DNA of 64,000 nucleotides from Acidobacteriota bacterium (GTDB lineage: Bacteria; Acidobacteriota; Vicinamibacteria; Vicinamibacterales; UBA2999): positions 124,001-188,000 of the forward strand of contig VFZN01000002.1 of the NCBI GenBank assembly GCA_016871195.1, given 5' to 3'. Position numbers and translations under genes: made by a program. The notes under the pieces are model-generated. The model was given only the letters and a program-made list of their open reading frames with translations, had not been told where the DNA came from and did no database searches. Below, piece by piece: positions 18,757-23,266 of the stretch; within the stretch, counting starts at the first letter, position 1, and each line of letters begins with the position of its first letter.

Positions 18757-19245
18757 TCAGTCGAGTGCCGCCAGCTCTTCGTCGATGCGCACAGTCAGAT
18801 CGCCAGATACGGGTGACGACCCCGCCATGGCCTCATGCGGACGCGCGCGCTTCCATCGCCGCAGCATCAACGCCAGCCCGGCGGCCCCGAGCAGTGACCC
18901 CGCAATCGGCACGCCCCACACGACGCGCCCGATGGGCGTGTCTGACGGGTCGGCCAGAATCTGCGGCCCGTACTGCGCCACCAGTTCATTCGCGAGCGAG
19001 TCGCGCGACTCGCCGCGCGCAAGCCGCCCCGCGAGGGTCTGCCGAAGCTCAAACGCCGCCGGCGACGGACAGTCTGCCAGCGTGAGTCCCGGGCAGAAGG
19101 GACTCATCACCTCTCGGAACAGGCGCGCATCCTCACGCGTCTCGCCAGACACCGGCTGCGCGTGCAACGCCGGGGATTGCCCTGCGACCAGCAGAAGCAG
19201 CACCAGTGCCGGCAGGTGCGCGAGCCGTCGGCGCCCGGTGCGCAT
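18757..19245 (-). CDS. CcmH-like cytochrome c biogenesis protein with variant Cys motif
   Basis: A 162-residue protein with a signal/membrane segment (about 8-28), a three-helix CcmH/CycL-type domain and a C-terminal membrane helix (about 105-125), then a basic patch and an acidic tail. The usual L-R-C-x-x-C is replaced by F-C-P-G-L-T-L-A-D-C-P-S, that is Cys-x7-Cys. CcmH family proteins reduce apocytochrome cysteines before haem ligation. No other ccm gene is present, and it ends a copper-chaperone operon, so it may serve an oxidase or the cytochrome encoded at 20371. An in-frame ATG at 19323 would add 26 residues; 19245 gives a normal signal peptide, but neither has a clear ribosome site. 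Confidence 0.75.
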   Translation of the reverse strand: MRTGRRRLAHLPALVLLLLVAGQSPALHAQPVSGETREDARLFREVMSPFCPGLTLADCPSPAAFELRQTLAGRLARGESRDSLANELVAQYGPQILADPSDTPIGRVVWGVPIAGSLLGAAGLALMLRRWKRARPHEAMAGSSPVSGDLTVRIDEELAALD

Positions 19246-19338
19246 CGACCCGCGAGCACGAGTGCGCGCACCCCCGGTGCTGACCAGCCGCGCAAACGTC
19301 GCGATGCAAAACGCGATGGTCATAGGCGGGGCATCCGC

Positions 19339-19938
19339 TCAGGCAGCCGCCAGCAGCTGCCGGATGCTGCGCACAACCGTATCGACATTGGCTTCATAGT
19401 CGATGAGCAGGCGCGTCTGGCCCCTGGCATCGAGGCCGAAGATCGACACGGTGTGCGACATGAGGTAGCCCGCGGCCGTCGGCTCTGACGATCGCTCGAA
19501 ATGTGCTCCGAACTGCCGGGCCACCCTGGCCGTGTCTTCGGGGGTCCCGGTCAGGCCCACCGCATCCACTCCGAAGTAGGTGAGGTGCTCTTTCATGACC
19601 GTCGGCGTGTCGCGTTCCGGATCGATCGAAATGTAAATCGCCTTGACCCGCCCGCGCTCATCGTCGGTCAGCCGCGCATAGGCCGCACTCAGCTTCGACA
19701 AGGTCGTCGGGCACGCGTCGGGACACATCGTGTAGCCGAAGAACACCAGCACGACCTTGCCGCGCAGCGACGCCAGCTCGAACGGCTGCGCATCCTGGTT
19801 GGTCAGCGTGAAGTCGCCGCCAATCGGCAGGATGGGCAGTTCGTCGGCCGCAGCGGCCGGGGGCGCCGCAGGCTCGCTGCGGCACGCGGCCACCAGGGCC
19901 AGCAGCAGCACGCAGGGCAGCAGCAGGGCCTGTCTCAT
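19339..19938 (-). CDS. SCO1/SenC-family copper chaperone lipoprotein
   Basis: A 199-residue protein with a lipobox leader (V-A-A-C, Cys19), an Ala/Pro linker, and a thioredoxin-like SCO domain. It has the copper/redox motif C-P-D-A-C at 72-76 and the third ligand His162 in S-H-T-V. SCO proteins deliver copper to, or reduce the cysteines of, the CuA site of cytochrome oxidase at the outer face of the inner membrane. Its ATG overlaps the stop of the PCu(A)C gene as ATGA, so the two are translationally coupled. That pairing is typical, because PCu(A)C loads copper onto SCO or directly into CuA. A second SCO is encoded at 26574. Confidence 0.93.
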   Translation of the reverse strand: MRQALLLPCVLLLALVAACRSEPAAPPAAAADELPILPIGGDFTLTNQDAQPFELASLRGKVVLVFFGYTMCPDACPTTLSKLSAAYARLTDDERGRVKAIYISIDPERDTPTVMKEHLTYFGVDAVGLTGTPEDTARVARQFGAHFERSSEPTAAGYLMSHTVSIFGLDARGQTRLLIDYEANVDTVVRSIRQLLAAA

Positions 19939-20835: not shown

Positions 20836-22089
20836 TTACGAAGTCGGCGTCAGGTTGCCGGCCACATCGGTGCGGTAGGCCTTGATGGCCGGCAGCAGTC
20901 CGGCCAGAGCCCCCAGCACCACCATGCCGAGCGGCGTGAGCCACAGGGCCTGATCGGGTTTGAAGACCTGCAGTACAACCCCGGTCTGCTCGCGCACAAT
21001 CACGAACGCGACACCGAGAATGACCGCATACACGGCATAGCCCACCAGCGCCCCGAGCGCGGTGATCGTCGTGGCCTCGAGCACGATCGCCGAGGATACC
21101 GTGCGCCGCCGCGCACCCAGCGCACGCAGAATGGCAAACTCGCGCCGCCGCTCGTGCATGGTGTTGTAGAGACTGGCCAGAATCGTACCGGCCGCCACCA
21201 CCACGACAAAGTACGCCACCAGCTCAAGCACCTGGTTGACCCATCCGATTTTCTCGAACAGATCAGCCATCGACCGGCCGATGGGCCAGGCCAGCGTGGC
21301 GCGTGTACCCTGACGGTTGATCGCCTGGTCGAGAAACATGCCGGCCTGCGGATCGGCCAGCTTGAGCATGACGGCACTGACCTCCCGATGCTCGTCGGGT
21401 ATCTCCACGCCCTCCTCGGGGCGATAGTTGCGTCCCGTGCCGCGCAGCACATGCCCGCTCATGCGGAACACGCCCTCGATGGGAATGAACACGAGTCGAT
21501 CGAGTGGACTGTTTGTGGGGGCCAGCACGCCCACGACCGTGTATTCGTCGTCGTGTGCCTTGCCCTCGACATCGGCGAGGCCATGCGAGGGCTCGAGGTG
21601 ATCGCCCGCGCGCACGCCGGTGCGCTGGGCCACGACGCTGCCGACCACCGCCTCTTTCGCATCCGCCGTAAACAGGCGTCCGCCGGACGTCACCGTCAAC
21701 CCGCCTTCCCCCGGGAAGCGCGTGAACAGATCCGTGGTCGTGCCGATGATGCGAAAGCCCTCGTAGCTGTCACCCACGGCATAGGGCACCGCGAGCTCTA
21801 CTCCGGGGTCCTCTTCGACCGACTCGTAGAGCTGCCAGGGAATGTTCCCGGGCGAGGTTTCCAGATGGAAGACCGCATTCAGCACCAGTTGCAGCTGACT
21901 GCCCCGCGCACCCAGCACGGCATCAAACCCCTGCGCCCCACCCGTGAACGCATCGTATGACTGGCGCTTGATCGCGAACACGGCCATGACGAGGCCGCAC
22001 GCCAGCGCCACCGACACGACCGTGACCGACGTCGACAACGCGTGCTGCCGCAGGCTGCGCCGCACGATCAGCATGAGCCCGGGCCGCAT
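20836..22089 (-). CDS. FtsX/MacB-type ABC transporter permease
   Basis: A 417-residue permease with one N-terminal membrane helix (about 18-40), a large periplasmic domain (about 45-270) and three C-terminal helices, the MacB/LolC type VII ABC topology. The coupling region shows the family motif R-R-R-E-F-A-I-L-R-A-L-G-A. Such machines do not carry substrates through the membrane; they move lipoproteins or drive periplasmic partners. Start codons overlap the ATPase stop as GTGATG; ATG 22089 is used here and GTG 22092 is possible. Being cotranscribed with DUF3299 and just upstream of copper chaperones suggests a metal-related task, which is inference. Confidence 0.9.
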   Translation of the reverse strand: MRPGLMLIVRRSLRQHALSTSVTVVSVALACGLVMAVFAIKRQSYDAFTGGAQGFDAVLGARGSQLQLVLNAVFHLETSPGNIPWQLYESVEEDPGVELAVPYAVGDSYEGFRIIGTTTDLFTRFPGEGGLTVTSGGRLFTADAKEAVVGSVVAQRTGVRAGDHLEPSHGLADVEGKAHDDEYTVVGVLAPTNSPLDRLVFIPIEGVFRMSGHVLRGTGRNYRPEEGVEIPDEHREVSAVMLKLADPQAGMFLDQAINRQGTRATLAWPIGRSMADLFEKIGWVNQVLELVAYFVVVVAAGTILASLYNTMHERRREFAILRALGARRRTVSSAIVLEATTITALGALVGYAVYAVILGVAFVIVREQTGVVLQVFKPDQALWLTPLGMVVLGALAGLLPAIKAYRTDVAGNLTPTS

Positions 22090-22799
22090 CACCTCACCTC
22101 CGCTGGCGCAGACAGCACGCGATTGAGCGTGGCCAGGTCGTCGACGCGATCAAACTGCCCCAGCACCGCCGGATCGTGACTGACGAGCAGCAGGGCCGCC
22201 CCCTGCTCATGGCACACCTCGCGAATCAGCGTCAGCGCCTCTGCACCGTGTCGGGCATCGAGGTTGCCCGTGGGCTCGTCGGCCAGCACCAGTCGCGGAC
22301 GCCCTGCGAGGGCGCGGGCGACGGCCACGCGCTGCTGCTGGCCCACCGAGAGCTGCCGCGGCAGGTAATGCAGCCGTCCCCCCAGACCCACGCGGGTCAG
22401 CAGTGCCGCAGCGGCCGTCGCGTCCGATCCGCGGCCGAACATCATGCCGAGCAGTACATTCTCGAGCGCCGAGTAGCCCTGCAGCAGGTTGAACGTCTGG
22501 AACACGTAGCCGATGCGTTCGGCCCGCAGGGCATCACGGTCTGCCTCGCCAAGTGCCGTGATGTCGGTGCCGTCGATCAGCACCCGTCCATGGTCGGGGG
22601 TGAGAATGCCGGCGATGATGTGCAGCAGCGTGGTCTTTCCAGACCCGCTCGCGCCGCGCAGCGCCACCTGTTCACCGGCGCCCAGCTCGAACGACGGGAT
22701 GTCGAGCACCGGCGTCACCTCGCCGTCCGGGGCCCGGTAGGCTTTCGTCAAGGACTCGACGCGCAGGACGGGCGCGTCGCCTCCCGCCGCAGCTGTCAC
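22089..22799 (-). CDS. ABC transporter ATP-binding protein (LolD/MacB type)
   Basis: A 236-residue ATPase. It has Walker [10 protein letters not shown], the Q-loop in V-F-Q-T-F-N-L-L, the signature L-S-V-G-Q-Q-Q-R, Walker [13 protein letters not shown] and the H-loop S-H-D. The T-G-N-L-D ending and size match the LolD/MacB/FtsE group that partners FtsX-like permeases, here the next gene. The GTG start at 22799 overlaps the stop of the DUF3299 gene as GTGA, indicating translational coupling. Confidence 0.93.
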
Positions 22800-23266
22800 C
22801 GGCCATCCTCGATGTCGGCGCGGTCGGCTTCCAGACGATAGAGACTTGTGACGCGGCCGTTCTTCAGTTCCTCGCCGACCTCGAGCCGCCCCTTGACACT
22901 CATCGCCAGGTGCGTGAACTTGGCGCGCTTGCCGCCCTTCATGCGCACGAGCACCCACTCGTTCATCCGCACGGGGGCCCCGAAGTAGCACATGTCGATG
23001 CTGGCATTCAGCATGAACATCGACACGCCGTCCGGGTTGAGGTCGAGCGGCAGCATGAAGCCCTCGATCGACACCATCGTGCCGCTCAGCGACTTGACCG
23101 CATCGGGAATCTTGTTCTGCAGCGTACGCGGCGTCGGGTCGAAGGGGTCGGGCAGTTCGTATTCGTAGTTGCTCAGCTTGCTGAAGTCGACGCGCTGGTA
23201 CGACTGCGCGCCCACCATCGTGGAAATCAGCAGGGCAAAGATCAGAGTGACGATGCCAGAACGCAT
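22796..23266 (-). CDS. Secreted DUF3299 protein
   Basis: A 156-residue protein with a signal peptide (about 1-20, ending V-G-A-Q) and a DUF3299 domain (about 45-150). The recognisable parts are G-F-M-L-P-L and the conserved cysteine segment with Cys93 in D-M-C-Y-F-G-A-P. The family is periplasmic, of unknown function, and often encoded with LolCDE-like ABC genes in metal-related operons. Here it is the first gene of the ABC/copper chaperone cluster and is coupled by a four-base overlap to the ATPase. A conserved Cys could bind metal. It starts 13 bp after the alpha/beta hydrolase stop and has AAGG four bases before its ATG. Confidence 0.85.
   Translation of the reverse strand: MRSGIVTLIFALLISTMVGAQSYQRVDFSKLSNYEYELPDPFDPTPRTLQNKIPDAVKSLSGTMVSIEGFMLPLDLNPDGVSMFMLNASIDMCYFGAPVRMNEWVLVRMKGGKRAKFTHLAMSVKGRLEVGEELKNGRVTSLYRLEADRADIEDGR

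Follow-up and report, generated by a model that had tools for sequence, protein, structure and literature searches.

The window analysed here is a stretch of 64,000 nucleotides (nt) from an Acidobacteriota bacterium (contig VFZN01000002.1, positions 124,001 to 188,000; genome designated G000), and at 18757-23266 on its minus strand it carries seven open reading frames (ORFs) in which a core of three genes, encoding a DUF3299 protein, an ATP-binding cassette (ABC) ATPase and an FtsX-type permease, is followed by four copper-related genes. All seven were found at the coordinates given in a preliminary description of the window, with the order and overlaps claimed there, and each scored above its Pfam cut-off. 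The DUF3299 gene (22796..23266; PF11736, 32 bits) encodes an OB-fold protein of the ZrgE/PA4066 type with a signal peptide-like N-terminus, the second gene (22089..22799; ABC_tran, 114 bits) a LolD/MacB-type ATPase of the ZrgC/PA4064 type, and the third (20836..22092; FtsX, 70 bits; MacB_PCD, 44 bits) a permease of the ZrgB/PA4065 type. The FtsX and MacB_PCD domains and the LolD-like ATPase bear out the MacB/LolC-type architecture that had been proposed.

The copper-related genes encode a small cytochrome c with a lipoprotein-like signal and a CxxCH motif (20371..20769; Cytochrom_C, 34 bits), a PCu(A)C copper chaperone with an intact HxM...M...HxM motif (19935..20363; PCuAC, 136 bits), an SCO1/SenC lipoprotein in which the motif was read as CPDAC (19339..19938; SCO1-SenC, 136 bits) and a CcmH-like protein (18757..19323; CcmH, 57 bits), an order that we regard as an ordinary, conventional copper-delivery set. 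The CcmH-like protein is the single CcmH match in its genome, and its cysteines are spaced as CPGLTLADC rather than the usual LRCxxC.

Overlaps of about 4 nt join DUF3299 to the ABC gene, the ABC gene to FtsX, and PCuAC to SCO, while the cytochrome c and PCuAC genes overlap or almost touch according to the start codon chosen (PCu(A)C has alternative starts upstream at 20378 or 20438). The single wide junction of the set is the 66-nt gap between FtsX and cytochrome c (20770-20835). As a second genome (locus L022, JADZCY010000279.1; G419 was taken as its genome) has all seven genes in the identical order, with 55-77% protein identity, the set lies beyond chance.

Family and conserved residues of the core

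The core was compared with the curated families of the MacB superfamily. The ATPase scored best with the LolD family, at 188 bits against a cut-off of 308; for the permease, the best scores were those with ADOP and LolC/E, the latter at 42 bits against a cut-off of 362. Scores so far under the curated cut-offs rule out membership of LolCDE. A tripartite MacB exporter, with fused ATPase-permease and MacA, was also rejected, the ATPase and permease being separate ORFs and no adaptor being seen in the cluster. By tblastn against plasmids, the permease matched Phaeobacter gallaeciensis (30.9%, 1e-36), at a locus ordered Fur regulator-ZrgA-ATPase-permease-DUF3299, and a Pseudomonas aeruginosa plasmid copy (28%, 4e-30), at a locus ordered ZrgA-ATPase-permease-DUF3299; the DUF3299 protein gave no matches in the same type of search. 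The first Protein Data Bank (PDB) match of the AlphaFold2 (AF2) model of the window DUF3299 protein (mean confidence, pLDDT, 88) was 4hsp, the structure of PA4066, which was also matched, at 1.3e-15, by a profile built from 40 DUF3299 sequences. As the permease matches Zrg loci and the DUF3299 fold is that of PA4066, the core is a Zrg-type machine (ZrgE/C/B; PA4066/4064/4065) within the MacB superfamily, and so a new member of the Zrg kind beside an ordinary copper set. The suggestion that DUF3299 is the periplasmic partner is also supported, and the association of DUF3299 and ABC genes with zinc-regulated loci, likewise put forward in the preliminary description, was confirmed for ZrgABCDE and PA4063-PA4066 (PMC9817125, PMC11481552). 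The zrg genes of Vibrio are Zur-controlled and serve zinc acquisition (PMC9817125, PMC9820375), and for PA4064-65 of P. aeruginosa, regarded as a split MacB, export of pyochelin-cobalt has been proposed (PMC11481552).

An alignment of 96 permeases, spanning the window's own and those of Pseudomonas and Deinococcus, revealed a histidine of the FtsX periplasmic domain, His170, in 96/96 sequences and a second, His180, in 94/96, and profile matches of the permease to MacB/LolC structures were limited to the C-terminal part. Cys93 of DUF3299 was invariant across 40 sequences; in other branches, Cys, Ile-His or a CxxC comes next. From this conservation, His170, His180 and Cys93 are candidate metal ligands. 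The window permease has gained no Met or Cys at conserved positions and departs from conserved residues at few places, among them Asn313, replaced by His, and Phe333, replaced by Ser. A second DUF3299 gene in the window's genome (contig C2:272153-272428; L002, L013) stands alone near a contig end, with no ATPase or permease in the available flanking sequence.

The core and the copper set in other genomes

A scan of one genome per species across 84,980 species gave 156 relatives of the core, of which the best-scoring 80, not a random sample, were fetched with their flanks and their gene content determined by a stop-to-stop search. The ATPase was present in 79 of the 80, DUF3299 in 53 and a His-rich lipoprotein in 44, with Fur-type genes in 8, ribosomal protein L33 in 5 and COG0523 in 3. 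PCuAC, SCO, CcmH and the cytochrome were found in only one of the 80, L022, which belongs to the window's genus; among the 53 loci flanked on each side by 2.5 kb or more, the His-rich gene was found in 35, DUF3299 in 41 and PCuAC, again, in one. In these relatives, the ABC/DUF3299 half thus stands nearly always without copper genes. ZnuA and ZnuB lie beside the core in 5-6 loci (by clustering of neighbours); locus L059, for example, reads ZnuA-ZnuB-(Fur type, opposite strand)-ATPase-permease-His-rich-DUF3299. Directly upstream of the core in four Hydrogenedentota is a gene for an L33 without zinc cysteine pairs, a form that established work describes as a zinc-shortage paralogue; L33 genes adjoin the core in the Hydrogenedentota loci L039, L050, L056, L057 and L060.

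The family of His-rich lipoproteins encoded next to the core (L053:11301-11747 and 41 relatives; 25 sequences in alignment A2) has no Pfam match. Its AF2 model is a confident all-beta fold (pLDDT 89), ZrgA having a ferredoxin-like fold, and no PDB match was obtained at E < 0.001, so there is no sign of the ZrgA fold in this protein. A further small protein without a Pfam match, bearing a CREEGCPP motif (L015:2813-3172, L016:8646-8942 and upstream of the L089 COG0523 match), lies near COG0523 GTPase or DUF3299 genes. A related clade occurs on plasmids (L163, L164, L166-L175) of Deinococcus, Paracoccus, Rhizobium, Ensifer, Shinella, Azospirillum and others, in the order alkaline phosphatase, small remote DUF3299, ATPase, FtsX; the small protein carries a CPFC motif and was recognised as a remote DUF3299 by hhalign (97%, E 1.4e-11), and several of these permeases have a His-rich loop of their own. 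PCuAC beside the related ABC-FtsX genes in Paracoccus and Ensifer was considered as independent support for a copper role and set aside, because the HxM copper motif is missing from these proteins and their ends are His-rich. Such PCu(A)C-fold proteins without HxM and with His-rich tails, beside a zinc-type ABC machine (L164:6210-6686, L168:711-1208), are possibly zinc-binding PCuAC relatives.

The copper set was likewise found without the core. A PCuAC search of 149 genomes of the class gave 28 with PCuAC, and the class holds 14 PCuAC-SCO loci without the core (13 read in detail, together with G420). Two of these are in the window's own genus (G119 and G420), where the core is missing and the cytochrome c-PCuAC-SCO-CcmH order is kept with the same M24 peptidase gene adjoining. 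Four genomes (G129, G065, G091 and G051) have both the core and the copper set, but on separate contigs; MbnP also occurs in the G051 copper locus. COX2-type domains, candidate CuA targets, were found in the window's genome on contigs C14 and C26.

The core is present in only 2/5 genomes of the genus (G000 and G419). In G129, of a sister genus, DUF3299-ABC-FtsX is followed by a second DUF3299 gene and the His-rich lipoprotein gene, then by ADOP, methyltransferase and M24 peptidase genes. This neighbourhood is equivalent to that of the window, and the copper set therefore fills the slot of the second DUF3299 and the His-rich lipoprotein, which accounts for the adjoining of the two units in one genus. 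In the permease tree, the window falls within a well-supported five-member clade that also contains L014, L022, L023 and L024, and a sister grouping of the window and L022 permeases was not favoured (approximately unbiased test, p 0.039), so that by this tree it is doubtful whether the joined order arose only once. Since the two FtsX proteins do not group while the genes flanking the joined locus agree between the window genome and L022, the units may also have been joined in an ancestor and the arrangement altered afterwards in the sister genus.

Putative control signals between the two halves

Within the 66-nt gap lies an inverted repeat, CGCGTC-N5-GCCGCA (20805..20821, minus strand), 52 nt before the cytochrome start, which is a candidate operator of the copper set. 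A consensus, TGCGNC-N5-GCCGCA, was found 51-54 nt before the start in 6/6 loci scored, with one mismatch each in G000 and G419, where the core is present, and none in G119, G420, G129 and G065, which have no core at the copper locus. At a seventh locus (G091, also without the core), TGCGACATCATGCCGCA was read by eye, unscored, at about the same distance. With one mismatch allowed, about 10 chance matches are expected in the 64-kb window on both strands, so that hitting one of four set positions by chance would have a probability of about 3 in 10,000. The consensus was derived from the loci on which it was scored, which makes the comparison with shuffled sequences look somewhat too favourable.

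Nearer to the cytochrome gene, 6 nt before its start, is a promoter-like -10 box, TACGCT (20776..20781, minus strand), which conforms to a TANNNT pattern found 5-9 nt before the start in 10/48 window genes, compared to 0.5% of random positions. The cytochrome's box recurs in the four genus members that have the copper set, and the DUF3299 gene and the hydrolase gene upstream of it also have TANNNT boxes (e.g. 23267-23291, 24113-24137). These boxes are likely to be a signature of leaderless transcripts in this genome. The conserved element and the promoter-like box in the gap point to probable separate transcription of the copper set, with read-through from the core possible; the cytochrome gene, with an element and box of its own that are kept where the core is missing, would thus be largely independent in its transcription.

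The hydrolase is an alpha/beta hydrolase (23279..24112, minus strand; Hydrolase_4, 199 bits) 12 nt upstream of DUF3299 and also upstream in L022; it may share a transcript with DUF3299 but is no part of the ABC machine. Divergent from it on the plus strand is a glucose/sorbosone dehydrogenase gene, after which, at 25381-27221, come genes for a YHYH protein, a small MORN_2-like protein and another SCO1.

Two probable neighbouring units and their likeness to known systems

We consider it likely that the locus consists of two neighbouring units, a Zrg-type, zinc-linked machine and a conventional copper set with mainly its own promoter. In such an arrangement, cytoplasmic ATP hydrolysis would drive the periplasmic domain of FtsX; this domain and the OB-fold protein DUF3299 would most likely together handle periplasmic Zn(II) or a similar divalent metal. 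The cytochrome c-PCu(A)C-SCO-CcmH proteins, made mainly from a promoter in the 66-nt gap, would load copper and help in maturing respiratory cytochrome c or CuA proteins. The energised copper-delivery step that the preliminary description had put forward is unlikely, the halves being separable and the copper set having its own control signals.

Several observations weigh against a zinc-linked machine beside an unconnected copper set. The role of the family is disputed, with zinc uptake in Vibrio set against export of pyochelin-cobalt in P. aeruginosa (PMC9820375, PMC11481552). In 76 relatives, the sequences ahead of the core held Zur-like palindromes no more often than expected by chance, and ZnuA was not found in G000, which has one Fur-family gene. 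The His-rich lipoprotein was absent from all five genus genomes by a profile search that did match G051 and G129; for the window's genome this meant no match to the profile and no His-rich metal-binding partner near the locus, ZrgA (DUF2796) not having been searched for genome-wide. Both core-bearing genus members have the joined core-copper order, and L022 has genes for MbnP, of copper type, and a MauG-type di-haem peroxidase (L022:6328-8585) between hydrolase and DUF3299.

Some of these observations bear on the first alternative, a recruitment of the core to copper within this genus, with PCu(A)C/SCO having replaced the His-rich lipoprotein as the partner that carries the metal and with the ABC machine driving copper transfer to CuA or chaperone release. 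It would explain why the joined order is kept in two species at the identity given above, why the copper set stands in place of a His-rich partner missing throughout the genus, and why MbnP and MauG-type genes lie beside the core in L022. We think it unlikely, however, as the copper set occurs without the core in two members of the same genus, has its own upstream element in the gap, and is accompanied by no Met or Cys gains in FtsX; the missing His-rich gene is itself weak support, because about one third of the full-flank relatives are also without a detected one. If the core were recruited in this way, a Zrg-type machine would, in a single genus of Vicinamibacterales, have exchanged its His-rich zinc partner for a PCu(A)C/SCO copper set and would energise periplasmic copper transfer in CuA assembly. 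There is also only a small chance that the core exports a small metal chelate or other compound unrelated to the copper set, as proposed for PA4064-65: the pyochelin-cobalt phenotypes of the P. aeruginosa homologue (PMC11481552) and the MacB-type fold favour this, whereas no outer-membrane or MacA-type partner or metallophore genes were seen at the window locus and relatives adjoin zinc uptake genes. That the ABC-FtsX pair is a LolCDE-like device freeing a lipoprotein chaperone such as SCO is very improbable, for although LolD is the best-scoring family for the ATPase and LolC/E match the permease weakly, both fall far below the Lol cut-offs, the relatives are linked to metal genes, and most copper sets, SCO lipoproteins included, occur without the core.

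Taking two neighbouring units as the favoured reading, the proposed copper role has been put to the test and its two halves found to be separate elsewhere, and the little-studied Zrg family is extended from a few studied bacteria to many phyla. The constant FtsX His170, the near-constant His180 and the constant DUF3299 Cys93 offer targets for mutation by which to test what DUF3299 does and which way transport runs, a disputed point.

Like Vibrio ZrgABCDE (zrgB permease, zrgC ATPase, zrgE DUF3299), the core combines in one cluster DUF3299, a LolD-type ATPase and an FtsX permease with four transmembrane segments and a large periplasmic domain. It differs in having no ZrgA (DUF2796) or His-rich partner at the locus, in placing DUF3299 first and in adjoining a copper set; the Vibrio genes are under Zur, whereas no Zur site was identified for the core. 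With PA4063-PA4066 of P. aeruginosa it shares a homologous permease (28%, to the plasmid copy) and a DUF3299 model that matches the PA4066 structure 4hsp, while PA4063, which has the ZrgA fold, is missing at the window locus, and P. aeruginosa is the one of the two for which Zur control has been demonstrated. The FtsX C-terminal domain, MacB_PCD periplasmic domain and LolD-like ATPase are held in common with MacB and LolCDE, from which the window machine is set apart by its separate ATPase and permease proteins, its want of a MacA/TolC partner, scores far below the LolD, LolC/E and MacB cut-offs, and a conserved His pair of its own in a permease whose profile matches there span the C-terminal part only. 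The copper set, finally, resembles the PCu(A)C-SCO sets for CuA in its intact PCu(A)C copper motif, SCO CxxxC and adjacent genes, to which the window adds a small cytochrome c, a CcmH-like gene and a neighbouring Zrg-type core.

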